The notes under the pieces were generated by a model. It had not been told where the DNA came from. It made no database searches and saw only the letters and a list, made by a program, of their open reading frames with translations. A program made the translations under genes and the position numbers. This document shows positions 5,646 through 15,991 of a DNA stretch of 23,104 nucleotides, piece by piece. Source of the stretch: a virus; IMG/VR virus record IMGVR_UViG_3300039171_000012, positions 1 through 23,104 of that record. One strand, given 5' to 3'. Position 1 is the stretch's first letter. The number at the start of each line of letters is the position of its first letter.

Positions 5646-5909
5646 ATGAAAAAACGCACTAGAAGCATACTAGAAGAACTTAATAACTTAGGTAGGCAAA
5701 AGAATAACGACTACTTAATTGATGCAACTGCGTCGAATATTATTGAGAGTTCAATTAATTTACTCAACAGAATTAATGATGTATATGACGAAGATACGGC
5801 ATCGGAGTTAGAACGACGATTCATCAATTCAATTAAGAGCGGTGACCCAAAAAAGTTTCGTCGCTCAATGGCTAGGATAATAGAGAGTAAAAACAATGAT
5901 GCTAAATGA
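5646..5909 (+). CDS. Small hypothetical helical protein (87 aa)
   Basis: ATG preceded by AAGGAACT, first gene after a late-promoter box. The product is charged and mostly helical by composition, with a basic N-terminus (MKKRTRSILEELN). An I-L-E sequence at residues 8-10 could be a prohead-protease-like site, but this gene is the weakest member of that set. Its last 14 bases overlap the start of the nucleotidyltransferase gene, suggesting co-translation. I do not recognise a family; an internal head protein is a guess from context. Confidence 0.6.
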   Translation: MKKRTRSILEELNNLGRQKNNDYLIDATASNIIESSINLLNRINDVYDEDTASELERRFINSIKSGDPKKFRRSMARIIESKNNDAK

Positions 5910-6759
5910 AGGTGGATCAATGCCCGGGGTCGGGGCAATACACATATCCGAGATCGAACCTACTCTTAATGCATTAGAGAAGATACTCGGAATTGACCTA
6001 AAGAACAATGTACTAGGTAGCGTAGGAAAAAAAGAGTTCTCAGGTGACATCGACGTTGCTCTACAGATAGACCCAAAAGATATTCCAGAATTCATAAACC
6101 GACTCGAAAAAACTCCCGAAGTGATTGACATTAAAAAATCTAGTGTTATAATGACTAAAGTAAAGATTGTTGACTACGATCAATCAAAAACAACAGCTAA
6201 GCCGAGAACTGGGCATGTACAAATAGACTTTATGCCAGGTGACCCGGATTGGATGAAAACATTTTATCACGCACCGAACGAAACTGAATCGAAGTACAAA
6301 GGAGTATTTCGTAATTTATTAATCTCGTCTATTGTTCCTCACTACCAATCAAAAGTATCAGACGAAACTATCGAAGACGGTAGGCCGGTGGAGCAAGAGC
6401 GATGGATGTGGTCATCAACCGACGGCCTAGTTAGAGTAAATCGCAAGCCTAAGCCTAAAAAGAACGGCAAAGGATACACCCAGCAATGGATAAACACTCG
6501 ACTAACTAAGCCAATGACAGACCCAAAGCAAATTGTAAAAACTCTAAACTTAGATTCAGTTGCTGACCTAAACTCGTTCGAAAGCCTACTAGCAGCTATC
6601 GAAAAAAACTACCCATCAGACATGGTAAGAAAGATTAAGGACAGCTTTGCCAACAACAGGACAGCACAGGACATTGGGCTGCCAGGCGAAGTAAAGACCG
6701 AAAGCCTGGCAGACAAGCAACTACGCAGAATTAAACAACTTAACGGGTTCAACAGATGA
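5896..6759 (+). CDS. Pol-beta-superfamily nucleotidyltransferase-like protein
   Basis: A 287-residue protein with the signature of the DNA polymerase beta nucleotidyltransferase fold: G41-S42, then D51-I-D53 (GDIDVAL) after the helix, and a third carboxylate D111 on a following strand (HVQIDFM). In the family these acids bind the two catalytic metals and the enzyme transfers a nucleotide to RNA, protein or a small molecule; the substrate cannot be told here. ATG at 5896 gives the long form; ATG at 5920 has a better ribosome binding site (AAGGTGG) and would remove eight residues. The stop overlaps the next start (ATGA), pairing it with the KWDG-motif gene. I recall related pairs in marine T4-like phages. 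Confidence 0.7.
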   Translation: MMLNEGGSMPGVGAIHISEIEPTLNALEKILGIDLKNNVLGSVGKKEFSGDIDVALQIDPKDIPEFINRLEKTPEVIDIKKSSVIMTKVKIVDYDQSKTTAKPRTGHVQIDFMPGDPDWMKTFYHAPNETESKYKGVFRNLLISSIVPHYQSKVSDETIEDGRPVEQERWMWSSTDGLVRVNRKPKPKKNGKGYTQQWINTRLTKPMTDPKQIVKTLNLDSVADLNSFESLLAAIEKNYPSDMVRKIKDSFANNRTAQDIGLPGEVKTESLADKQLRRIKQLNGFNR

Positions 6760-7862
6760 GATTTCGCGAGATACAACGCGCCCTAAATGAGTCAAAGCAG
6801 TTACTAGAAGCTAGAGTTGGACGTGAGTATCAACACCTAGAAGACCTAGTGTTTGTTGACGGCAGTGAAGGCGCAATTAAAGCGGCAGACATACTAGATA
6901 AACTAGGCAGTAACAGCGGCGACGTAAGTATTAAGTGGGACGGCAATCCTACTATCTACTGGGGCCGAGACGAAGATGGAAAGTTTGTGCTAGTGGGCAA
7001 GAATGGGTGGGGCAAACTAAAAGCAACATCACCAGAAGAGCTAGTCGACTTCATTAATAGCACAGGCAAGGGCGAAGAATGGCGTGCCCAGTTTGCTTCT
7101 AATATGGGCAACTTATTTAGAATTATGGAGCAGTCAACGCCTACAGATTACCAGGGCTACGTATTTGGCGACCTCCTATACACCCCGGACAAGCCGTTCG
7201 AAACAACCAATGACGGTGTTGAATTTACCCCTAACCTTGTTAAATATACAGTGAGTAGCAATAGCGAACTCGGAAAGCGCATAGCAGCAAGTAAAGTTGG
7301 TGTTGTTGTTCATAACAAATTTAATGAGTTTGGGGATAAATCCAGCAAACCTATCACAGACGTAGAAGCACTAAACAGCGGTGACGTTGTTGTACTTGGC
7401 CAGACTTATGTAACGCACCAGCCCGAAGTAGATGTATCTGGTGTTGACAAGATTAGACAGCACGCCAAACAAAGTGCTGCGATCATGGACGAATTCCTTG
7501 CTCCGGTTAAGGGGTTAGCTGATATGAAGAACATCATATATACATACGTTAACCAAATGAGTCGTAACAAGCAACTAAAGAATCTAGAAACGGGCTTCTT
7601 TGACTGGCTACAAAAGTCAAAGGTTAGCACAAACAAACAAAAGAAGATTGCCGGAATGGCACAGGAGTCACCTAAGGCGCTACCTATAATCTTTAGATTA
7701 GTTAAAGAGATTATGGCTGTAAAAGATCATGTAATTGATCAACTCGACAGCGCCGACAGTGACGTTAAAGCAAGTACCGCAGGCGAACGCGGTGGCGAAG
7801 GATATGTCGCACAGGACTCAAAGATTAAGCTTGTGCCAAGAGCAAGATGGACACCAAACTAA
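6756..7862 (+). CDS. KWDG-motif protein, ligase/covalent-nucleotidyltransferase-like
   Basis: A 368-residue protein. K60-W-D-G63 after a hydrophobic strand matches motif I (K-x-D-G) of ATP-dependent ligases and capping enzymes, where the lysine is adenylated or guanylated. GYVFGDLLY (134-142) resembles motif III with an acid at D139, and KVGVVVHNKF (180-189) is in the place of motif IV, but without its usual Glu; both are weak matches. I recall related proteins of unknown function in cyanophages (possibly DUF6267). The N-terminus MRFREI and the site L16-L-E18|A19 fit a capsid-targeting propeptide. It overlaps the nucleotidyltransferase gene by ATGA. Ligase activity is inferred from motif I; a head-associated end-repair role is speculation. 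Confidence 0.65.
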   Translation: MRFREIQRALNESKQLLEARVGREYQHLEDLVFVDGSEGAIKAADILDKLGSNSGDVSIKWDGNPTIYWGRDEDGKFVLVGKNGWGKLKATSPEELVDFINSTGKGEEWRAQFASNMGNLFRIMEQSTPTDYQGYVFGDLLYTPDKPFETTNDGVEFTPNLVKYTVSSNSELGKRIAASKVGVVVHNKFNEFGDKSSKPITDVEALNSGDVVVLGQTYVTHQPEVDVSGVDKIRQHAKQSAAIMDEFLAPVKGLADMKNIIYTYVNQMSRNKQLKNLETGFFDWLQKSKVSTNKQKKIAGMAQESPKALPIIFRLVKEIMAVKDHVIDQLDSADSDVKASTAGERGGEGYVAQDSKIKLVPRARWTPN

Positions 7863-7871
7863 GGACTAGAT

Positions 7872-8210
7872 ATGAAAATTACTGAAATTACAGATGTAAA
7901 GAACAAAGGAAAGAAGTTAAGAGAGAATTCAGAGGTTGTTGAACTCGGCCGCAGCATGATGGATATGGCCGTAACACAAAAGGACGAAGAGGTATCTAAC
8001 AATCTAAGTAGCTTAGGCGACGCACTTACTCGCTTCGGAACAAACATGGGGCCCAAGAATATCAAGGACTTGGTTAGACAGACCGGCTTAGATCAAGGTA
8101 CTATACAAAAGTACATGGCAGCAGCAGAAAATCATCTTGAGAAAAACGGTCCTAACCGCGCCGGCGCAAAGGACATGGACGACGACAACTTCAACGACGA
8201 AGCTTATTAA
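7872..8210 (+). CDS. Hypothetical protein with MKITEI N-terminus (112 aa)
   Basis: ATG with AAGGA six bases upstream, the ribosome binding site overlapping the previous stop codon. The protein begins MKITEI, a member of the repeated N-terminal signature in this region, with L16-R-E18 as a possible processing site. The middle is helical and the C-terminus acidic (KDMDDDNFNDE). It ends in a TAATG overlap with the next gene. No known domain is recognised. Probably an internal head or assembly protein if the signature is a targeting sequence. Confidence 0.65.
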   Translation: MKITEITDVKNKGKKLRENSEVVELGRSMMDMAVTQKDEEVSNNLSSLGDALTRFGTNMGPKNIKDLVRQTGLDQGTIQKYMAAAENHLEKNGPNRAGAKDMDDDNFNDEAY

Positions 8211-9079
8211 TGGACTTTCTCAAGGACCTGCACGAAGCACGGATGACACGCAACGAAAACAACGTCAAGGTACTAACCTACACTGATTGTTGTGAGCGCC
8301 TGTATCTGTCTCTAATAGTCCTTGAGGTGTTGAGACAGTATCCACAACACCGTTCAGCGGCTACTAGGTATGCTCGCAAGACTACTGTGTATACCGGGTA
8401 TGACAGATTTAGTATGAGTAGCACAGACTTGTACAACTTCATCTACTTCGTCACAGGAGACAAGGCAGCAACCGATAAGCTCAAAGATCCGGATGCTGCC
8501 GGGGCAATGAGAGAGCGTACTACGCTGCCTACTATGGCAGTCAACCGATATCTTCAAAAGTTAGCAAATGGCGCTACGCCAGACCAAGTAAGTGCAATGT
8601 TTATGAAAGTAGAGTCATCTTTACACATCAGCAACAGTGCTTACAAAGCAGCAAGACGCGACCTAATGGGATATGCTAAGCTAGGTCACCCTGCCAGACA
8701 AGAGCTCGTAAGTATGCTATTACTGGCTTGTAGAGCTAAACTACGTAGCTCTGACATTATTGACGATCTAGAAAAATTGGCTGCTGACCGGCATCTAGAG
8801 ACTGCGAGAGTAGCAGACAACGAACCTACAGTAAGTATGCCTGATATTAACATGACTGGACAGGATCTTGCGCTGTACCGTTACGTTGTAGGAGCCAAGA
8901 ACATGCACATGACTAAGTTGTTTGTCGAGCATGTCAAGCAAGGCAAGGCTACTAACAGTGCAATGAACCAAGCATACCTGCCAGCAGTAGAAATGTTAGA
9001 CGATATCGTCACTGCTGGCCCAGCATTTATACAGCAACTTAGAGCATTACACAAACGAGCTAAAAAAGACAGAAAATAA
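8210..9079 (+). CDS. Hypothetical mostly helical protein (289 aa)
   Basis: Starts in a TAATG overlap. The first ten residues, MDFLKDLHEA, form a short amphipathic helix ending in L7-H-E9|A10, which fits the T4 prohead protease cleavage rule. The rest looks all-alpha, with Cys26-Cys27 near the start and a very basic tail (KRAKKDRK). No enzymatic motif is seen. It closes the five-gene block that includes the nucleotidyltransferase and KWDG proteins, before a new late promoter. Function unknown; a packaged or core protein is inferred from context. Confidence 0.65.
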   Translation: MDFLKDLHEARMTRNENNVKVLTYTDCCERLYLSLIVLEVLRQYPQHRSAATRYARKTTVYTGYDRFSMSSTDLYNFIYFVTGDKAATDKLKDPDAAGAMRERTTLPTMAVNRYLQKLANGATPDQVSAMFMKVESSLHISNSAYKAARRDLMGYAKLGHPARQELVSMLLLACRAKLRSSDIIDDLEKLAADRHLETARVADNEPTVSMPDINMTGQDLALYRYVVGAKNMHMTKLFVEHVKQGKATNSAMNQAYLPAVEMLDDIVTAGPAFIQQLRALHKRAKKDRK

Positions 9080-9099
9080 TAGGTTTTCTGCGTAATGGC

Positions 9100-9106
9100 T
9101 AAATAC
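9100..9106 (+). promoter_or_regulatory. T4-type late promoter box
   Basis: TAAATAC (context GGCTAAATACATAT) upstream of the 9163 gene. The 57-base leader that follows holds a hairpin and a strong ribosome binding site, and the gene has its own terminator, so this is probably a strong late single-gene unit. Confidence 0.65.
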
Positions 9107-9115
9107 ATATAACAA

Positions 9116-9132
9116 CTTCACTGAGCGTGAAG
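9116..9132 (+). other. Leader hairpin at the 5' end of the 9163 transcript
   Basis: CTTCAC (9116-9121) pairs with GTGAAG (9127-9132) around the loop TGAGC. A transcript started by the TAAATA box at 9100 would begin only a few bases before the stem. Such 5' stem-loops can stabilise phage mRNA; that role here is inference. Confidence 0.45.
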
Positions 9133-9162
9133 ATGTCCATTTTGAGACAAAGGAGAAATAAA

Positions 9163-9651
9163 ATGGCTACACAACCAAAAGTAAACCCGACTCTAGTGAA
9201 CGAAGCACGTCACTTTAACGGTAAATCAGTAACAGCAGTAAACGTTAACCTTGGCGTTAACGTAACGGCAGAGTTTGGTGCAAACGGTGCATTGCAAGCT
9301 GTTTACACTGTACTAGCTGAAAATGCTACCCCGATCATCATCGGTCAAGTAGTTGATCTAACAGCAGGCGACTTTGACGTATACTTTGAAGGCGACTTCC
9401 TAGAGTTAGACGACTACGGCACAAACGGCACTGATTCATTCATTGCTGATTTACAAGTTCGCATCCGCGCACTTGGTACAAACGTAGGTGTACGTGACGC
9501 AGTTACCGCAGCAGCAAGCGGCGAAAGCGAAAGCGCAGGTATTACCATGGCAAACGCAGCAGTAGTAGCAGTTGCTACTCTAGCATCAGGTGATCCGCTA
9601 GTAGACGGCACAGCTGGTCTAGTAGGCCCAGGTGGCGTTAAACTTGTTTAA
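9163..9651 (+). CDS. Putative abundant virion structural protein (162 aa)
   Basis: ATG at 9163 follows AAAGGAG at ideal spacing; an upstream in-frame start at 9127 has no such site and would cover the leader. The product is Ala/Val/Gly/Thr-rich and acidic with few charged clusters, resembling a compact beta-sandwich or assembly protein. It is expressed alone between a late promoter and a perfect terminator, an arrangement typical of highly expressed structural proteins. I do not recognise the family; a tube, decoration or other abundant virion protein is plausible. Confidence 0.7.
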   Translation: MATQPKVNPTLVNEARHFNGKSVTAVNVNLGVNVTAEFGANGALQAVYTVLAENATPIIIGQVVDLTAGDFDVYFEGDFLELDDYGTNGTDSFIADLQVRIRALGTNVGVRDAVTAAASGESESAGITMANAAVVAVATLASGDPLVDGTAGLVGPGGVKLV

Positions 9652-9671
9652 TAGCTAGTTAAAGCAACACC

Positions 9672-9703
9672 AAAAAGGTTCACATTCGTGTGAACCTTTT
9701 TTT
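9672..9703 (+). terminator. Strong intrinsic terminator
   Basis: A perfect 13-base-pair stem (AAAAAGGTTCACA / TGTGAACCTTTTT) closes on the very stable loop TTCG and is followed by further T residues. It lies 20 bases after the stop codon of the 9163 gene and is the only clear factor-independent terminator in the window. Confidence 0.92.
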
Positions 9704-9712
9704 ATGGCTGAG

Positions 9713-9719
9713 TAAATAC
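9713..9719 (+). promoter_or_regulatory. Possible late promoter box just after the terminator
   Basis: TAAATAC ends four bases before ATG 9723. A transcript from it would have almost no leader, so either this mRNA is leaderless, the start is further downstream, or the box is chance. Its position right after the terminator supports a promoter. Confidence 0.4.
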
Positions 9720-9722
9720 ACT

Positions 9723-10115
9723 ATGAAACGATACAAACTGCATACACTGATAGACATAACAGAGACTAATGCCAGGCGCGGCGAAGATCCTAGAGCATAT
9801 AAGCAACAACAGAACTGGATGGCATTGATACAGACTCTAGGATTACGATGTAACCCTATAGTTACCCATACCGAGTGCAAAAATGCCAGTGTTGCTAATC
9901 TAGGTTTTGGCACTGCATACACTAGTAGTCAACAAGTATGGACTGTATATTTTGATTTCGAACACGAGGACGATAACGATCTAACGTTTCTAGTTAGTGA
10001 CTTTGACCTAGTACCTGTAGCCGCAGGACTTGACGAAACAATAGCGCTAGAAACTGACATTTTCCGGACCGAGTCTAAGAAGTATTGCAACATTGTTTTC
10101 TCTACGGATCGATAA
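9723..10115 (+). CDS. Conserved phage hypothetical protein (130 aa)
   Basis: I choose ATG 9723; an open frame reaches back to a GTG at 9690, but that codon lies inside the terminator stem. The N-terminal 45 residues (MKRYKLHTLIDITETNAR, then a QQQNW segment) look familiar from cyanophage and other marine T4-like genomes, where the protein is conserved but unassigned. The C-terminal half is acidic and beta-rich (FDFEHEDDNDLTF). No ribosome binding site of normal strength is visible before the start. Function unknown. Confidence 0.65.
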   Translation: MKRYKLHTLIDITETNARRGEDPRAYKQQQNWMALIQTLGLRCNPIVTHTECKNASVANLGFGTAYTSSQQVWTVYFDFEHEDDNDLTFLVSDFDLVPVAAGLDETIALETDIFRTESKKYCNIVFSTDR

Positions 10116-10119
10116 ATAC
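10113..10119 (+). promoter_or_regulatory. T4-type late promoter box
   Basis: TAAATAC (context GATAAATACTCG) overlaps the end of the previous gene and lies 28 bases before the GTG start at 10148, with GAGGAGG between. It probably drives the chain of small genes from 10148 to 11956. Confidence 0.6.
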
Positions 10120-10147
10120 TCGTATACACAACTGAGGAGGTCCATTT

Positions 10148-10381
10148 GTGGAGCCTACACCATTAGAGAAAACTAACCTAGAAGCGCATGTTGATCTTTG
10201 TCAGCAACGCTACTTAAATTTAGAAGCAAGACTTACTAAGATAGAGAACAAAGTAAACCAAGTACACAATGACATCGTCGAAGGTAATAAATCAATGACC
10301 AAGGTATTAGTGGGTACTGCTGGTACTGTTGTTGCAGGACTACTGTCTACAATTGTTGTAATTTTAATCGCGTTCGTGTAA
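10148..10381 (+). CDS. Small coiled-coil plus C-terminal TM protein, holin/XhlA-like
   Basis: A GTG start with a very strong ribosome binding site (GAGGAGG, seven bases away). The 77 residues comprise an N-terminal heptad-like helix (about 10-50: LEARLTKIENKVNQVHNDI) and one C-terminal hydrophobic segment (about 53-77) ending at the membrane face. This is the layout of XhlA-type holin accessory proteins, which act in the inner membrane during lysis. Sequence identity to that family cannot be tested here and no endolysin is adjacent, so the lysis role is inference; another small membrane protein is possible. Confidence 0.6.
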   Translation: MEPTPLEKTNLEAHVDLCQQRYLNLEARLTKIENKVNQVHNDIVEGNKSMTKVLVGTAGTVVAGLLSTIVVILIAFV

Positions 10382-10388
10382 GGACATT

Positions 10389-10682
10389 ATGTTACTAAGA
10401 GAGCTAACACAAGGTATCGAAATAGGCGAAGGTCAGACCTGGGCTAGATCAGGAAAGAAAATTGTACGCAAGTACCGTTGCTCAACGGGCTCTCGCAAGA
10501 ACCGAATAGTGGCTAACATAGCACAGTGTTATGCTGCACCCGATCCCAAAAAACGAGCGCAAATGAAACGAACAAAGGCAAGGCTAGGTGCAAAAATGAC
10601 GAGAAAATCTAAGAAGACAAAACGTGTAAACCCAGCAAGCCGTCGCGTACAGCGTATGAACAAAGCAGCAAAAGGAAGGTAA
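10389..10682 (+). CDS. Very basic protein, protamine-like, paralog 1
   Basis: A 97-residue protein with AAGGA before its ATG. After a non-basic N-terminus (MLLRELTQG, then I12-G-E14|G15, a fit to the prohead protease rule) comes a Lys/Arg-rich body. A conserved block VRKYRC-(x)-GSRK and a second Cys about 17 residues later occur also in the next gene. The C-terminal half is almost entirely basic (MKRTKARLGAKM and beyond). I infer DNA binding or condensation in the head; the two cysteines could bind metal or form a disulfide. I recall similar unassigned proteins in marine T4-like phages. Confidence 0.65.
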   Translation: MLLRELTQGIEIGEGQTWARSGKKIVRKYRCSTGSRKNRIVANIAQCYAAPDPKKRAQMKRTKARLGAKMTRKSKKTKRVNPASRRVQRMNKAAKGR

Positions 10683-10683
10683 C

Positions 10684-10995
10684 ATGCTGATAAGAGAGAT
10701 ACTCGAAGGAGCAATTCCTGTAGCTGGTAGGTCTGGGAATAAGGTAGTACGTAAATACCGCTGCACGTCAGGTAGTCGTAAAGGCAGAGTAGTTGCTAAG
10801 CCAAGTACGTGCAATGCGCCGCGAAACGTTGGCAAAAGTGTTACACTAAAAAAGAACAAGCGAAAAGCCGGCTCAAGTATGCAGGTTAAGATTAATCGCA
10901 CAAAGCGAGCAAAGCCAAGTTCAGTACGGCTAAAAAGCATAAACGTTGGTAGACGTCATAAAGAGCGTAGGCCAGGCAAAGGAAAACGTATATGA
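10684..10995 (+). CDS. Very basic protein, protamine-like, paralog 2
   Basis: A tandem paralog of the preceding gene, one base after its stop, 103 residues. Shared features are the MLIREI start, KVVRKYRC, GSRK and the second Cys, then a basic tail ending in GKGKRI. I6-L-E8|G9 fits the T4-type prohead protease rule closely. The two copies differ strongly after residue 50, so the duplication is old or selection on the tail is only for charge. Likely packaged with DNA, by inference. Its stop codon overlaps the next ATG (ATGA). Confidence 0.65.
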   Translation: MLIREILEGAIPVAGRSGNKVVRKYRCTSGSRKGRVVAKPSTCNAPRNVGKSVTLKKNKRKAGSSMQVKINRTKRAKPSSVRLKSINVGRRHKERRPGKGKRI

Positions 10996-11366
10996 AAATT
11001 AACGAAATAGTGCCCGACTTAGCCAATAATCCTAAAAATCAGCAAAGTCAAAGTAGCCAGCCTAGTAAGCACAGGACTAGCCAAAGCACACAAGGCACAC
11101 AAGGCACACAAGGCCCTGGGGCATCTACCAACGATCGCAGTGCAGAGCACAATAAAGATAGACAAATTAAACAAGGCGGAACAGTTAAACTAAGAACCGC
11201 TGATGGCTCTGAACAAGAGTTTAAGATTACGCGAGACATGGGCAACGAAGTAGAAATTGAAAATCCAGAAGGCCGAAGCAATCCTAATGAGCCAAATAAA
11301 TTAGTATACGATAAGAAACAACTTAGACGTGGAATGTCATCAAACAATGAAAATAACCGAACTTAG
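10992..11366 (+). CDS. Hypothetical protein with Ser/Gln-rich linker (124 aa)
   Basis: Starts by an ATGA overlap with the second basic protein. It begins MKINEI, part of the regional N-terminal signature. Residues 15-45 are a low-complexity Ser/Gln/Thr/Gly stretch containing three GTQ-type repeats from a 9-base DNA repeat (11088-11114). Residues 55-110 look like a small folded domain (TVKLRTADGSEQEFKI, then EVEIENPEG), perhaps SH3-like. No family recognised. A tether-plus-domain layout is consistent with a structural accessory protein. Confidence 0.6.
   Translation: MKINEIVPDLANNPKNQQSQSSQPSKHRTSQSTQGTQGTQGPGASTNDRSAEHNKDRQIKQGGTVKLRTADGSEQEFKITRDMGNEVEIENPEGRSNPNEPNKLVYDKKQLRRGMSSNNENNRT
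11088..11114 (+). repeat. Three perfect 9-base tandem repeats
   Basis: ACACAAGGC occurs three times in frame, coding Thr-Gln-Gly each time, within the Ser/Gln-rich linker of the 10992 gene. Such a tract can change length by slippage without breaking the frame. Confidence 0.85.
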
Positions 11367-11559
11367 TCAAGACATAACAATTGCGCTGTCTAACGAAGAG
11401 GCAGAGTTGCTCGAGCGGATAGATACAGCGCAGCCGCTATCTTCCTTTTCAGAAAGAGATCGTGTTGTTATTAGAGGACTAGTACGCAAAAGCTGTTTAA
11501 GCAAAGCAGTAGTCAACACAACTGTTATGGTGGTTAAAAATGAGACTAGAAGCACTTAG
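11347..11559 (+). CDS. Small hypothetical protein with MKITEL N-terminus (70 aa)
   Basis: ATG at 11347 gives MKITEL, matching the regional N-terminal signature; the in-frame GTG at 11329 would add six residues unlike it. The gene overlaps the previous one by 20 bases and the next by 20 bases. The product has an acidic helical first half and a Val/Lys-rich second half. No domain recognised. The start resembles, at the DNA level, those of the genes at 7872 and 10992. Confidence 0.55.
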   Translation: MKITELSQDITIALSNEEAELLERIDTAQPLSSFSERDRVVIRGLVRKSCLSKAVVNTTVMVVKNETRST

Positions 11560-11956
11560 CATCCTAGAAGAAGTAATAGACAGTGGACTTGAAGACGTTA
11601 CATTGCCGTATGTGTCCGGTAACAGTATTCGTATTAAACATATGGTAGTTCGGAACAGTAAGGTTGGGTGGCTAGTGTATAACAGCAAAACTCACACTCA
11701 AGTATCTAAGTTGTTTTGTAAAAGCAGTGCCATTGCGCTTGCTAAAAGTTACGCCGAAGGCAAGAATAAACGACTAATAATTGAAGAGCTAGATAGAGTA
11801 ATCGAAAAAAATCATAAAGATTGCACCTTTTATAAGAATACTCTTAATAATTGTAAAGACAGCGTTAAACGCGAAGCAACCTATAATAGGTACGAAGTAA
11901 GTTTATTAAAGACACAGTCTGCTAAGAAGTCTTTAGACCGATTTATATTTTGGTAA
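11540..11956 (+). CDS. Hypothetical protein, coiled-coil C-terminal half (138 aa)
   Basis: Overlaps the preceding gene by 20 bases, with GGTGG upstream of the ATG. The N-terminus MRLEALSILEEV holds I8-L-E10, a looser fit to the prohead protease rule. A middle segment (about 35-60) with WLVYNSK and KSSAIALAKSYAEGK resembles a small alpha/beta unit. Residues 75-138 are charged helix, likely coiled coil, ending in FIFW. I recall similar unassigned proteins in T4-like phages. Function unknown. Confidence 0.6.
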   Translation: MRLEALSILEEVIDSGLEDVTLPYVSGNSIRIKHMVVRNSKVGWLVYNSKTHTQVSKLFCKSSAIALAKSYAEGKNKRLIIEELDRVIEKNHKDCTFYKNTLNNCKDSVKREATYNRYEVSLLKTQSAKKSLDRFIFW

Positions 11957-11961
11957 CTGGA

Positions 11962-11968
11962 TAAATAG
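11962..11968 (+). promoter_or_regulatory. T4-type late promoter box
   Basis: TAAATAG (context GGATAAATAGTT) in the gap before the 11998 gene, 29 bases from its ATG. The seventh base differs from the commoner TAAATAC form. Confidence 0.5.
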
Positions 11969-11997
11969 TTACAATAACCACTAGGAATAGTTAACCC

Positions 11998-12726
11998 ATG
12001 AACATTAGAGACATATCAAAACCAGTAACTGCTAAGGCATTAAACGAGAGCCTTGCAAGACGGTTCGGCCAGCGAATTAACCTCGAAGCCTTTACCCTTG
12101 ACAGGCTGCAAGATTCACGTAATAACTTGCGCACTAAGATGAGCCAAGTAGAAACCACTGAAAGTTTTAACAGCGTCCAGAAAGAGACTTATCAAAAGAC
12201 TAAACTCTTCCTCGACGTGCTAAACGCTGAGATTGCCGAGCGCGAACAGATTGTAGGCTCAAAGCTAAAAGAAGGTGCAGAAGATAAAGCAGAGCTTACT
12301 ATGGCAGCCAAGGACATGGTTGACCGTGTCACCGGTTGGATGGAAGACACTGCCGAAATGGAAACTGAAAGTATGTTAGCACTGGCCGACAGCATCAGAG
12401 ACGAAATGGGATCAGAAGAGTCAGAGCAGTTCACTAATACTGTGCGACCTGCGCTAGAAGCGTTGTACCAAGTAATGGCACAAACTCGCGAAACGCTCAT
12501 TCAAGGTGTTAGTATGATCACAGGCGATGGCGGATTTAAACAGCCAATGGGCGACGATCCGATGGACGACGATCCGATGGACAGCGATCCGATGGACGAC
12601 GATCCGATGGACAGCGATCCGATGGACGACGAGTTCGGAGCAGACGCTTCGGCAGCAGGCGGGGAATTAGAAGGCGGTCGCGAAAAGCGAGAATCAGTAC
12701 AACGCCCTCGTTCAAAAAAAAAGTAA
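11998..12726 (+). CDS. Acidic head/scaffold-like protein with DPMD repeats
   Basis: A 242-residue protein starting MNIRDI with L15-N-E17|S18 as a possible processing site. Residues 15-100 are helical and polar; residues 100-175 hold a second helical domain (MVDRVTGWMEDTAEM, then DSIRDEMG). Residues 187-211 are five DPMDD/DPMDS repeats, and the tail turns basic (REKRESVQRPRSKKK). The acidic helical nature and signature suggest a core or scaffold-like internal protein, as in related marine T4-like phages, which is inference. The stop follows an A9 run, and the -1 frame continues openly into the next ORF, so a longer fused product is likely. Confidence 0.65.
   Translation: MNIRDISKPVTAKALNESLARRFGQRINLEAFTLDRLQDSRNNLRTKMSQVETTESFNSVQKETYQKTKLFLDVLNAEIAEREQIVGSKLKEGAEDKAELTMAAKDMVDRVTGWMEDTAEMETESMLALADSIRDEMGSEESEQFTNTVRPALEALYQVMAQTRETLIQGVSMITGDGGFKQPMGDDPMDDDPMDSDPMDDDPMDSDPMDDEFGADASAAGGELEGGREKRESVQRPRSKKK
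12556..12630 (+). repeat. Five 15-base tandem repeats coding DPMDD/DPMDS
   Basis: GATCCGATGGACGAC and GATCCGATGGACAGC alternate as five exact 15-base units, making a 30-base higher-order repeat. They encode an acidic linker in the 11998 protein. The two-base difference between alternate units is kept perfectly, pointing to recent expansion by 30-base steps. Confidence 0.92.
12714..12722 (+). other. A9 run, candidate -1 frameshift site
   Basis: Nine consecutive A residues end one base before the TAA of the 11998 gene. In the -1 frame there is no stop across this junction, and reading continues as KVSEGTDETATL directly into the 12756 ORF. That ORF has no good start of its own. The run could be a programmed slippage site or a homopolymer sequencing error; both predict one fused protein. 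Confidence 0.6.
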
Positions 12727-12755
12727 GTGAAGGAACAGACGAAACTGCAACTCTA

Positions 12756-13034
12756 GTGCAAGTACTAAAGACTGTCCCAAAAGGCACTAAGCTTTCTTGG
12801 GACAAGTTAAACAAGTATATGGCTAAAGCAGGTGTTCCTCAATTTAACTTTGAGTCTTTCAAAGTAGTGTATGACAACACTCCCCAGTTACAAGAGCTTG
12901 TTAAGTTCGGGCCAAACGGGGTAAAAATATATAGTGACAACACGGACAAACTGCCAAACTCAAAGCCAGGTGGCGGCGAAGACAGAGTTGCAGCAATGGC
13001 CAGCAGAGCAACCAGCAAAGATAGACAATTCTAA
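12756..13034 (+). CDS. C-terminal extension or small protein in the -1 frame (92 aa)
   Basis: The ORF reads from GTG 12756 but is open far upstream, and the nearest ribosome-binding-like AAGGA (near 12731) is about 20 bases away, too far for that GTG. The product has a small domain (KLSWDKLNKYMAKAG, then FESFKVVYDN and LVKFGPNGVKIY) and a Pro/Gly-rich tail. The best reading is that it is the C-terminal part of the 11998 protein made by -1 slippage at the A9 run, or a gene split by a sequencing error. Independent translation from a weak start remains possible. Confidence 0.55.
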   Translation: MQVLKTVPKGTKLSWDKLNKYMAKAGVPQFNFESFKVVYDNTPQLQELVKFGPNGVKIYSDNTDKLPNSKPGGGEDRVAAMASRATSKDRQF

Positions 13035-13042
13035 AATAAACA

Positions 13043-13071
13043 TTGACCTCCTGTAAATTATATGCTATAGT
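13043..13071 (+). promoter_or_regulatory. sigma70-type promoter for nfu
   Basis: TTGACC (13043-13048), 17 bases, TATAGT (13066-13071). Transcription would start near 13078, giving a leader of about 17 bases before ATG 13095. A TATAAT at 13075-13080 is too far from the -35 and would start inside the ribosome binding site, so it is less likely the -10. Confidence 0.7.
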
Positions 13072-13090
13072 GTATATAATCTACAGGAGG
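13047..13090 (+). promoter_or_regulatory. Inverted repeat sequestering the nfu ribosome binding site
   Basis: The arm 13047-13063 pairs with 13074-13090, 16 of 17 positions, with a single A-C mismatch at 13056/13081. The outer nine bases (CCTCCTGTA / TACAGGAGG) are perfect and bury AGGAGG, the nfu ribosome binding site. The -10 hexamer TATAGT forms the loop. Transcripts entering from upstream would fold and hide the site; those started at the internal promoter lack the left arm. A DNA operator is the alternative. Confidence 0.7.
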
Positions 13091-13094
13091 CCAA

Positions 13095-13409
13095 ATGCCT
13101 AACAGAACACAGCAAGAAATAGAAACTAGCATAAAAGAAACCATGGACACGTTTGTTGCTCCAGCGGTAGCTCAGCACGGCGGCAATGTGCGGTTTGTAA
13201 GCTACAGCGACGGCAACGTGGTTCTAGAAATGAGCGGAGCATGTAGCGGCTGTGCCGGATCAGCAGCAACTCTACAGTTCGGCATCCAAAGCATCCTAAC
13301 TGAAATGGTTCCCGAAGTTAGTACCATACAAGGATTCGATGATCCTAACTCAACTGTAGATCCTTACTTTACTGACTTCGACGACGATGCTCAGTGGGGC
13401 TTCGAATGA
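13095..13409 (+). CDS. NifU C-terminal-domain (Nfu-type) Fe-S carrier protein
   Basis: A 104-residue protein with AGGAGG five bases before ATG. The NifU C-terminal domain is visible: an N-terminal helix with a P-x-(V/L)-x-x-HGG element (H28-G-G30), then a strand region and the cluster-binding pair C50-S-G-C53 followed by small residues (AGSAATLQFGIQ). Family members carry 4Fe-4S clusters to target enzymes in the cytoplasm. It lacks the A-type N-terminal domain of bacterial NfuA and has an acidic tail (DFDDDAQW). Its stop overlaps the next gene by ATGA. It is a likely host-derived metabolic gene; the target is unknown. Confidence 0.85.
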   Translation: MPNRTQQEIETSIKETMDTFVAPAVAQHGGNVRFVSYSDGNVVLEMSGACSGCAGSAATLQFGIQSILTEMVPEVSTIQGFDDPNSTVDPYFTDFDDDAQWGFE

Positions 13410-14089
13410 GTTTAGTAATCACCAAATACAACTACACAAAACTAAGCCGCACCGAGTTTAATGGCGCGAGACGTTATCTTACTCCTGACGGCAGTGCTGT
13501 TGCTAGTGTAACTACTATCCTAAGTGAGACATCAGACAAAAGTCATCTGATTGCTTGGCGTAACAGGGTAGGACACGCCAAAGCCAAAGAGATTACTACA
13601 GAGGCAGCTGGAGTAGGCACCCGCATGCACAAGTATCTCGAAGACTACATCGTAACAGGCGAGTGGCCCACACCAGGCAGCAACCCTTATGCAATTAAAG
13701 CACACGCAATGGCAACTGTTATTAGAGACCAAGCACTAGTTGATATGGATGAAATCTGGGGCACAGAGGTTAGCTTGTACGTACCTAAGATATACGCAGG
13801 CACTACTGACCTAGTAGGAAAGTACAAACGCAAGCCGTCTATTTGCGACTTTAAACAAACCAATAAGCCCAAGAAGCTAGAGTGGGTCTATGACTACTTT
13901 CTACAAATGGTAGCTTATGCTGACGCTCACAATGCGGTACACGGCACCAATATACGCGAAGGCCATGTGTTTATGTGTTCGAGAGATTTGGAGTATCAGC
14001 AGTTTGACGTGTGGCCTAATGAGTTTGATGACTGGCGGCACGAGTGGTATGAAAGAGTGCATCAATTCTATTCAAAGACAGGAGGCTAA
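13406..14089 (+). CDS. PD-(D/E)XK exonuclease, RecB/Cas4/MGME1-like
   Basis: ATG 13406 overlaps the nfu stop (ATGA); a GTG at 13394 is less likely. The 227 residues carry the RecB-type nuclease core in order: H75 (GTRMH), E121 (WGTEVSL), D135 (GTTDLVG), D148-F-K150 (ICDFK) and a Q167 helix (YFLQMVAYADA). Such enzymes cut single-stranded DNA ends in a metal-dependent way and act in recombination, repair or nucleotide scavenging. The protein lacks the cysteine set of Fe-S Cas4/AddB nucleases, so the neighbouring Nfu probably does not serve it. Similar small exonucleases are common in cyanophages. Confidence 0.85.
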   Translation: MSLVITKYNYTKLSRTEFNGARRYLTPDGSAVASVTTILSETSDKSHLIAWRNRVGHAKAKEITTEAAGVGTRMHKYLEDYIVTGEWPTPGSNPYAIKAHAMATVIRDQALVDMDEIWGTEVSLYVPKIYAGTTDLVGKYKRKPSICDFKQTNKPKKLEWVYDYFLQMVAYADAHNAVHGTNIREGHVFMCSRDLEYQQFDVWPNEFDDWRHEWYERVHQFYSKTGG

Positions 14090-14090
14090 T

Positions 14091-14381
14091 ATGAAACTTG
14101 AAACTAAGAAAAAGTACTATGCCAAACTCTACAAGTGGGCATATAAGAAGTATAGAGACACGCATCTTAGCATGTTTTACAACGACATTAAGTGTCCGGG
14201 TTGCAACGAGTGGATGAGCATATCTGGCATCAAACACAAACACTCGTCCGTGGAACCACAACCCGATTGGGGCAGCCACATACACTGCGGCCAGTGTAGC
14301 ACCGATACCTATTGGAATCTTTGTATGGCTCCGTTTGCAGTGCGATGCAATAGCAACGGCGTGCCGTTCCCGGATAAATAA
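14091..14381 (+). CDS. Small zinc-ribbon protein (96 aa)
   Basis: ATG at 14091 has AGGAGG six bases before it, at the end of the exonuclease gene; an open frame extends to 13917 but only overlaps that gene. Two Cys pairs, C-P-G-C and C-G-Q-C about 37 residues apart, form a zinc-ribbon-like site, with a basic N-terminal helix (KKKYYAKLYKWAYKKY). Such proteins bind nucleic acids or partner proteins. Operon position after nfu and exonuclease suggests a DNA-processing or regulatory role, by inference. The stop overlaps a late-promoter-like TAAATAA. Confidence 0.65.
   Translation: MKLETKKKYYAKLYKWAYKKYRDTHLSMFYNDIKCPGCNEWMSISGIKHKHSSVEPQPDWGSHIHCGQCSTDTYWNLCMAPFAVRCNSNGVPFPDK
14375..14381 (+). 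promoter_or_regulatory. T4-type late promoter box
   Basis: TAAATAA overlapping the stop codon of the zinc-ribbon gene and 29 bases ahead of the tail spike ATG at 14411. The structural nature of the downstream gene fits a late promoter. AGGAG follows as ribosome binding site. Confidence 0.55.
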
Positions 14382-14410
14382 TACTACAATAACACAGGAG
14401 TATTACCTAC

Positions 14411-15991
14411 ATGGCCGTTGTATCAATATCACGAATACAAGTAAGACGAGGCACAGCTAACCAAGGAACCGGGTTGCCACAGCTTGCAAGCGGAGAGTTC
14501 GGTTGGGCTATAGACTCTCAAGAACTATACATCGGCAACGGTAGTACTTCAGAAGGAGCTCCAGCAGTTGGCAACACGCAGGTGCTAACTTCAAACTCTA
14601 ACATTATAAACCTAGCTGGCCAATATACGTACCGAGCCAACTCCAACATACAAACAAGTGAATCTACTCAAGTTGTTAGGTCTATCGCGGCACGGCTTGA
14701 CGAGCGAGTTAGCATAAACTCATTCGGCGGCCTAACACAAACAGATCAACTACAAAAAGCATTATTAGAACTATATCTTACTGACCCTACCCCAACTTCG
14801 GCCCCAGTACTGCACATCGAACCCGGAGTCTTTAACATTACTCGCACAGTTTATGTACCGCCAAACACTACCATAGTGGGTTCGGGCAAAAACAAAACAA
14901 TCTTTACAAAGGCCGGTAACTTTGATATGTTTCGGACTATTGGGACAAACGTTCCGTATAGCGGGTTCTTATCAAGTATAACAGAAACCGAAGTAACAGC
15001 ACTAAGTACATCTGGTCAAACAGAAGACCGGGCCCAAAATATACGATTTGAAGCAATGACACTTCGGGCAACCGGACAAAGGATGAGTGGCAGGTCGTAC
15101 TTGTTACGATTAGACAATTGTAGCAACAGCGAATTTAAAGATATTGAGTTTATCTATCCTGCCGGCGAAGCTTCGGTTACTAACTACGAATCAGGGGTCG
15201 GACTTGACAGTGGCAGCGGCGCAACTATTTCTAGAAACAACAAATTTATTGACTGTGATTTTACAGGGCTAAAAGAGGCCGCACATAGTTTACTCAAGGC
15301 AGACGACAATCAGTTTATTCGTTGTAACTTTAACCAATTGAATAGAGGAGTAGTGTTAGGCGAGTCGGGGCTACTTGCCGGAAACCCTGGTGCAGATAAC
15401 AATATTATTACAGACAGCAAATTTAGTAATATTAATCAGCAAGCATTTATGGTGTTACATGGAACCGGCAACAGAAGTAAAAATAACAGATATGGTGAAA
15501 ATGTTAGCAACGGATTTCCTGTCGTAAAGTACGGCGAAAGAGGAAACTTTTCGATTGACGACACCTTCGAAAGAACGTATAATTATGCTATAAGCGGGAA
15601 TCTTAACGAAGCATATTTGCCAGAAGTAGAAGGTCCTGTGTTCTATACAAATGGCGGCTATCATGAGTTTGCACTAAGTGGCACCCCCGTACCGTTTAGA
15701 TTACCGGCTGACGCTACAAGAGCGTACTCGATTGACTACTTTTACAAAAGTGCTTCAACAGGCCTGACTCAATCCGGAGTTCTGGACGTACTAGTTAGCC
15801 CCGACACCGATCTCGTTGACTTGGCAAACAGTTACTCCGAAGTAAACGGATCAGGACCAGAAGTAACAGAGATTAGTTTTGCCAGCGAACTGCAACTTGA
15901 TCTTGTCACGTCAGAGGTCTTGTCTGCTAGAATCCTAGTTTCCTCTAGTCAAATAGGAAATATAGTCGTTAAAATAACCACTAAATCATAA
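14411..15991 (+). CDS. Tail fiber/spike with beta-helix domain
   Basis: A 526-residue protein. The N-terminus (ISRIQVRRGTANQGTG, then LASGEFGWAIDSQELYIGNG) is the attachment-domain type seen at the start of many marine phage fibers. Residues 100-400 form a pectate-lyase-like parallel beta-helix: IEPGVF, then VYVPPNTTIVGSGKNKT, followed by repeated N-x-F-x-D-(C/I)-x-F rungs (KFIDCDF, QFIRCNF, SKFSNI). The last 130 residues are a beta-rich C-terminal domain. Such proteins bind host surface polysaccharide, sometimes with hydrolase or lyase activity; no catalytic residues can be assigned. Late promoter upstream. Confidence 0.8.
   Translation: MAVVSISRIQVRRGTANQGTGLPQLASGEFGWAIDSQELYIGNGSTSEGAPAVGNTQVLTSNSNIINLAGQYTYRANSNIQTSESTQVVRSIAARLDERVSINSFGGLTQTDQLQKALLELYLTDPTPTSAPVLHIEPGVFNITRTVYVPPNTTIVGSGKNKTIFTKAGNFDMFRTIGTNVPYSGFLSSITETEVTALSTSGQTEDRAQNIRFEAMTLRATGQRMSGRSYLLRLDNCSNSEFKDIEFIYPAGEASVTNYESGVGLDSGSGATISRNNKFIDCDFTGLKEAAHSLLKADDNQFIRCNFNQLNRGVVLGESGLLAGNPGADNNIITDSKFSNINQQAFMVLHGTGNRSKNNRYGENVSNGFPVVKYGERGNFSIDDTFERTYNYAISGNLNEAYLPEVEGPVFYTNGGYHEFALSGTPVPFRLPADATRAYSIDYFYKSASTGLTQSGVLDVLVSPDTDLVDLANSYSEVNGSGPEVTEISFASELQLDLVTSEVLSARILVSSSQIGNIVVKITTKS

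Follow-up and report, generated by a model that had tools for sequence, protein, structure and literature searches.

In bacteriophage T4, the internal proteins IPI, IPII and IPIII and the Alt protein carry a capsid-targeting sequence that is cut by the prohead protease gp21 (Mullaney and Black, 1996; reviewed in PMC3012670), and IPI, IPII, IPIII and gp24 are established gp21 substrates (PMC5694885). Most known examples of such injected proteins come from T-even phages; their shared leader led to their discovery, and they act against host restriction (PMC3012670, PMC12373910). In phiKZ and SPN3US, inner-head proteins with mostly very long propeptides are processed by an S80 prohead protease that cuts after A-x-E (PMC5694885, PMC10052503). 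Here we describe a gene cluster in a 23,104-base viral record of a marine giant T4-type phage (IMG/VR record IMGVR_UViG_3300039171_000012; the whole stretch is termed the window) whose members share a short start peptide. This peptide is very probably a divergent form of the T4-type capsid-targeting sequence, which would direct packaging in the head and be cut by a gp21-like protease. A search of a literature library found no paper describing capsid-targeting sequences in these phages.

A start peptide and its predicted cut site

A preliminary description of the window had listed seven open reading frames (ORFs), named here by their first nucleotide, that begin M-x-[ILF]-x-[ED]-[IL]: 6756, 7872, 10389, 10684, 10992, 11347 and 11998. 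All seven start as described and at the coordinates given, and plausible ribosome-binding sequences precede most of them. The pattern matches 7 of the 34 curated window genes, compared with 0.15 expected when residues 2-21 are shuffled (20,000 shuffles, maximum 3), 0.16 from internal positions (p=2e-10, or p=1e-8 with 10389 and 10684 counted once) and 0.24 from position-specific N-terminal composition (p=4e-9, or 1e-7 without the paralogue). The seven fall within 12 consecutive genes of the 34 (span p=0.002) and represent six families, 10389 and 10684 being paralogues of each other. The further claim that the signature is confined to this region holds within the 23-kb fragment but not in larger relatives, where the leader is found elsewhere too, including beside the portal gene.

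Starts of the MKITEI type consist of A/T-rich codons, and a functionless preference for K, I, N and T at A/T-rich gene starts might be held responsible for them. The shuffle, internal-position and composition nulls rule out chance or N-terminal composition as the source of the shared starts; composition predicts 0.24 matches where 7 are seen, and it leaves unexplained both the downstream site and the conservation of the peptide over diverged orthologues. Furthermore, neither lambda nor the first 50 kb of N4 contains a match to leader plus site. We therefore attach practically no weight to this explanation.

The genes of the cluster and their neighbours are as follows, with ↓ marking the predicted cut.

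5646..5909, + strand: 87-amino-acid protein of the phrog_11854 family (virion structural protein; PHROGs 4e-16), no leader
5896..6759, + strand: predicted Pol-beta-fold nucleotidyltransferase with a very short leader, MMLNE↓GG; not listed in the preliminary description
6756..7862, + strand: DUF6267 protein (Pfam PF19782, 4e-30), predicted leader MRFREIQRALNESKQLLE↓A, probable ligase-like core with invariant KWDG
7872..8210, + strand: cargo candidate by family conservation, MKITEITDVKNKGKKLRE↓N (LRE↓N)
8210..9079, + strand: cargo candidate with conserved site MDFLKDLHE↓A (57/64 relatives); relatives have a variable N-terminal extension
9723..10115, + strand: no leader; homologue of mass spectrometry-detected PA5oct gp250 (E=3.6e-4)
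10389..10682, + strand: putative basic, internal-protein-like cargo by family conservation, MLLRELTQGIEIGE↓G
10684..10995, + strand: putative basic, internal-protein-like cargo, MLIREILE↓G; paralogue of 10389
10992..11366, + strand: hexapeptide MKINEI without a canonical site; doubtful member, judged from relatives
11347..11559, + strand: hexapeptide MKITEL, probably within a folded domain; doubtful member, judged from relatives
11998..12726, + strand: putative cargo, leader MNIRDISKPVTAKALNE↓S; acidic DDPMDSDPM repeats near the C-terminus; phrog_14154 virion structural protein (4e-9)

Tail-fibre-like genes precede this cluster, and an exonuclease, ribonucleotide reductase subunits, a glutaredoxin-like gene and a PAAR gene follow it. 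The acidic repeats of 11998 lie in tandem at window positions 12500-12640. Between the cluster and the window's end, positions 13095-13409 encode a protein with a CSGC motif that by eye resembles the C-terminal iron-sulfur scaffold domain of NifU/NfuA, which is unusual in a phage.

Relatives were drawn from IMG/VR, where the DUF6267 gene matched 191 stretches and the 11998 gene matched 468; 80 of each were retained, and family conservation was counted over about 160 related loci. When redundant genes of these loci are removed, 137 of 238 tagged genes (58%) contain [ILVMF]-x-E↓[AGSN] with its E between residues 7 and 30, where shuffles give 32, and 13% of untagged genes do; weighted by family, the values are 33% and 10%. 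When the residue after E is left free, it is A, G or S in 60% of tagged and 23% of untagged genes. Typical leaders read MRYREFKILTE↓AKVGREYQHLED, MFVREIIE↓GATPIFG, MNIREFTKPVSAKKLNE↓SLAQRFG and MKINEVITE↓S. As a control, the same pattern applied to all T4 ORFs returns six with a site, namely IPI, IPII, IPIII, gp24 and two false matches (dda and a td exon).

In the window, [IL]-x-E↓[AGS] occurs at about residues 8-20 in 6756 (LLE↓A), 10389 (IGE↓G), 10684 (ILE↓G), 11998 (LNE↓S) and 8210 (LHE↓A), all sites that had been pointed out previously and that are indeed there. It is also found in 5896 at residue 5, is weak in 7872 and is lacking in 10992 and 11347. Conservation differs among the families. 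Leader and site are retained together in 68/69 members of the 11998 family; the DUF6267 leader is kept in 74/80 relatives, mostly as the first of the forms given above; and the basic proteins 10389 and 10684 belong to a family with the leader in 111 and the site in 85 of 117 members. In the 5896 family, E5-G6-G7 is almost invariant. The protein encoded by 8210 has the T4 leader spacing and a homologue in Salicola phage SCTP-2. For 7872, which has a weak cyanophage relative, 35/54 relatives carry the leader and 35/54 the site, as in MKINEVITE↓S. The 10992 family has the leader in 17/20 relatives and the site in just 3/20, and in the 11347 family the pattern is kept in 59/60 with a site at no fixed place. 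Judged by sequence, 6756, 10389, 10684 and 11998 are strong candidates for tagged genes, 8210 (T4 spacing) and 5896 (minimal leader) good ones, and 7872 a moderate one, with 10992 and 11347 doubtful.

In the case of 11347, we lean towards reading MK[IL]xEL as the first strand of a small folded domain rather than as a tag. The SCTP-2 counterpart aligns by eye without gaps from residue 1, and the 60 relatives lack a fixed site; on the other hand, a strand alone need not keep the leader pattern, as nearly all of these relatives do.

The leader also behaves as a separable module. Three leaderless homologues begin near the predicted cut: an SCTP-2 basic protein, PA5oct gp253 and the DUF6267 protein of cyanophage ACG-2014j. 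The SCTP-2 protein starts MAKLIYGRSGSKLVKKYRCT, compared with MLIREILE↓GAIPVAGRSGNKVVRKYRCT in 10684, and a stop codon lies three codons upstream of its start. The start of gp253 (MSGNAF) falls where the mature part of 5896 (MMLNE↓GGSMP) would begin, and the ACG-2014j protein starts a few residues ahead of the shared HLED. A further candidate, a seemingly leaderless basic protein in locus L200, proved to have a leader with a GTG start and was unusable as evidence. Conversely, DUF6267 proteins with added N-terminal stretches (L002, L066, L174 and L208) carry the tag at the new N-terminus, and in predicted structures the leaders of 6756 and 5896 lie outside the confident fold, with a predicted local distance difference test score (pLDDT) below 50 at residues 7-24 and 1-5 respectively. 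A longer leader module (..GGKADKVKGKEPxPKxxKPGGNETPHPMRGRLVGE) was seen both as its own gene and fused to DUF6267 (L119:4674-5237; L207:2150-3352; L174:2158).

These results bear on the possibility that virion proteins use the peptide as a motif for docking or assembly (on the scaffold, portal, tail or another structure) and that it is not removed by proteolysis. Such a motif would suit the 10992 and 11347 families, which retain the hexapeptide with no conserved site, some PA5oct proteins that have the leader pattern and no site, and the tail-fibre-like genes in the same region. It fits poorly with the tight coupling of [ILV]-x-E↓[AGS] to the leader and with leaderless homologues that start near the site, and we consider it unlikely.

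Head genes and virion proteins of related phages

By single genes, the nearest isolates are jumbo phages, namely Pseudomonas phage PA5oct and its kin, Salicola SCTP-2 and Salmonella Munch-like phages, whereas those nearest by DUF6267 are cyanophages. Searches of isolate phages by tblastn with 11998 and 10684 gave few matches, and family profiles were required instead.

A gp21-like protease was found on contigs of relatives; the window fragment has no head operon. One 357-kb contig (G018) carries both a cluster syntenic with the window, with tagged genes, and a T4-type head operon comprising a portal, a MILRELFYFD gene beside it, an acidic core-like protein, an S77 (gp21-type) protease, a scaffold and a capsid protein. 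The capsid protein reads MSELLESRWQDTKAALLE↓G...YLAE↓S, giving LLE↓G and LAE↓S sites. On a second contig (G004, 170 kb, with a DUF6267 protein 63% identical), S77 protease, scaffold and capsid protein genes are accompanied by tagged genes. The capsid proteins of relatives thus contain L[LVT]E↓G and L[AS]E↓[ST], the first site being L[LVT]E↓G in 15 distinct capsid-protein sequences from related head operons. The gene beside the portal has tag and site in PA5oct (gp333, MKINDIITE↓G) and the hexapeptide in the other relatives. In a 275-kb relative (G006), profiles of gp21 and gp23 found no match; the portal is also absent, and this contig therefore seems to be without the main head region.

PA5oct, a distant relative, offers a link to virion composition through its GenBank record, which annotates proteins detected by electrospray ionization tandem mass spectrometry (ESI-MS/MS). 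Window positions 5646-15991 have their counterpart in its gp259-gp243 block, which lies upstream of the ribonucleotide reductase genes; 11 of the 14 proteins gp245-gp258 are annotated as detected. The 5646 protein, which has relatives in Munch-like and SCTP-2 jumbo phages, is 41% identical to gp259 (tblastn). Family profiles match 5896 to gp253 (4e-15), 9723 to gp250 (E=3.6e-4), 11540 to gp248 (2e-8), 11998 to gp247 (E=1.6e-16) and the window exonuclease to gp244 (1e-69). Among these homologues, gp253, gp250 and gp247 (MFLKDVKITE↓S) are annotated as detected, and so is gp333. Across PA5oct, 5/93 detected proteins have tag plus site, compared with 1/347 of the remaining ORFs (p=0.002); for the tag alone the counts are 11/93 and 14/347 (p=0.007). 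The equal frequency among non-virion genes that the preliminary description had named as refuting its proposal is thus not observed.

Computation establishes the tag and how far it is conserved, the site, the presence in relatives of the protease and capsid protein, and the synteny with mass spectrometry-detected proteins of PA5oct. From them we infer that the tag would dock a new protein onto the scaffolding core during prohead assembly, so that the protein is enclosed in the shell; that the gp21-like (S77) protease of the phage would cut after [IL]-x-E; and that the mature protein would be kept alongside the DNA in the head and probably be injected into the bacterium. In this lineage the putative signal can be written as M-x-[ILFY]-x-[ED]-[ILF], a spacer of 0 to about 40 residues, and the predicted cut. 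It appears to be present on at least five window families (6756, 7872, 10389/10684, 11998 and, in T4 spacing, 8210), with a minimal form on 5896.

Several observations weigh against this interpretation. The head operon is not on the window fragment itself. The likeness to the T4 leader extends to motif and spacing and no further, and the pattern lies one residue nearer the initial methionine. The broad pattern yields 2 chance matches among 40 genes in T7, which is without such a protease. A canonical N-terminal site is missing from 10992 and 11347, two of the seven genes, and every cut is a prediction from sequence. Finally, gp253 is detected by mass spectrometry yet leaderless, and the leader is therefore not required for virion association in every phage. 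Overall, the proposal of a capsid-targeting propeptide made in the preliminary description is upheld by the enrichment of the site behind the leader, the T4 control, the conservation, the co-occurrence with a head operon and S77 protease on one contig, the PA5oct data and the low fold confidence of the leader, with a changed membership: 10992 and 11347 become doubtful, and 5896 and 8210 are added.

Candidate cargo proteins and their significance

The mature parts of the tagged proteins appear to be diverse. The modelled structure of 5896 is a Pol-beta-type nucleotidyltransferase fold; a fold search returned DNA polymerase beta (E=1e-4, TM-score 0.36), and the GS...DxD motif and third aspartate of that fold are present, with G50, D51, D53 and D111 invariant. 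The 6756 protein scores 105.9 bits against the DUF6267 (PF19782) profile, whose curated cut-off is 27, and its model probably has a ligase-like core: tRNA and DNA ligases are the top fold matches, albeit weak (E>=0.1), and the KxDG motif is present as the invariant KWDG. In principle, all these genes could descend by ancient duplication from a single gene, with the leader as the only part still recognizable, as the clear paralogues 10389 and 10684 might suggest. However, the predicted folds of 5896 and 6756 were found to be unrelated, and the mature parts, which include short basic proteins, seem unrelated as well, which makes this origin very improbable. Leaders of common ancestry would be a transferred module, and the functional reading therefore would not change.

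In relatives, the tag is also found on a cytidylyltransferase-like protein, a cytidylyltransferase/ParB-like fusion and a zeta-toxin-like kinase. This kinase (L113:8394-9074 in G010; Pfam 2e-13; leader MKIHDILEQQIEE↓G) is a toxin-like enzyme that would be head cargo. Two proteins of about 400 amino acids and unknown family (L105:6211-7452 in G006 and L093:13469-14632 in G003) have clear leaders, MRFREFKLYHQPTVLTE↓G and MRYSDFKQPLFE↓G. A second motif, [IL]K[RKE]LAG, recurs at the ends of unrelated proteins, with 24 terminal and 13 internal matches (about sixfold density). Its carriers include the C-termini of scaffold proteins and of the 5896 family (window 5896-6759), genes 110536 and 352910 of G018, and PA5oct gp330. 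Shared by the scaffold and several of these proteins, this terminal motif may be another docking element.

In T-even phages, such head cargo counters restriction enzymes (PMC3012670, PMC12373910). A recognizable leader in a large uncultured group, as sampled by the 191 DUF6267 and 468 11998-family IMG/VR stretches, would make head cargo predictable from sequence, and it points to enzymes that had no previous link to head packaging. More speculatively, the leader could be a generic head-import code in marine and other giant T4-type phages, by which any gene that gains the tag becomes head cargo; we regard this as possible but doubtful. If it were true, injected effectors could be read directly off phage genomes by scanning for the tag; they would include a packaged nucleotidyltransferase and ligase-like pair, a cytidylyltransferase and zeta-toxin-like kinase domains.

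Comparison with known head-packaging systems

As in the T4 internal proteins, a short N-terminal tag is borne by otherwise unrelated, often small basic proteins, and a hydrophobic-x-E-hydrophobic core is followed by [IL]-x-E↓[AGS]. Also as in T4, an S77 protease and a T4-type head operon are present, in this case in relatives. The tag itself differs, being M-x-phi-x-[ED]-phi (phi, hydrophobic) rather than MKT[YF]xEF; the T4 spacing of hydrophobic-x-acidic-hydrophobic is retained with a shift of one residue, and 8210 has the T4 spacing. Unlike in T4, the spacer ranges from 0 to about 40 residues, the tag is on many more families, including enzyme domains, and the cargo genes are flanked by tail-fibre-like genes on one side and ribonucleotide reductase genes on the other. 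Small size and basic charge are all that the basic proteins have in common with T4 internal proteins. T4 gp24, the capsid vertex protein (MAKINELLRE↓S), is matched by the same pattern and cut by gp21; unlike cargo, it is a shell protein.

PA5oct gp245-gp259 form a syntenic block ahead of the exonuclease and ribonucleotide reductase, with homologues of 5646, 5896, 9723, 11540 and 11998, but there the tag is on some proteins only (gp246 and gp247, and gp333 elsewhere), and gp253 is without it. The phiKZ and SPN3US systems are alike in that head proteins are cut during maturation by a distant relative of gp21, and they differ in the cut after A-x-E and in propeptides that are mostly very long.

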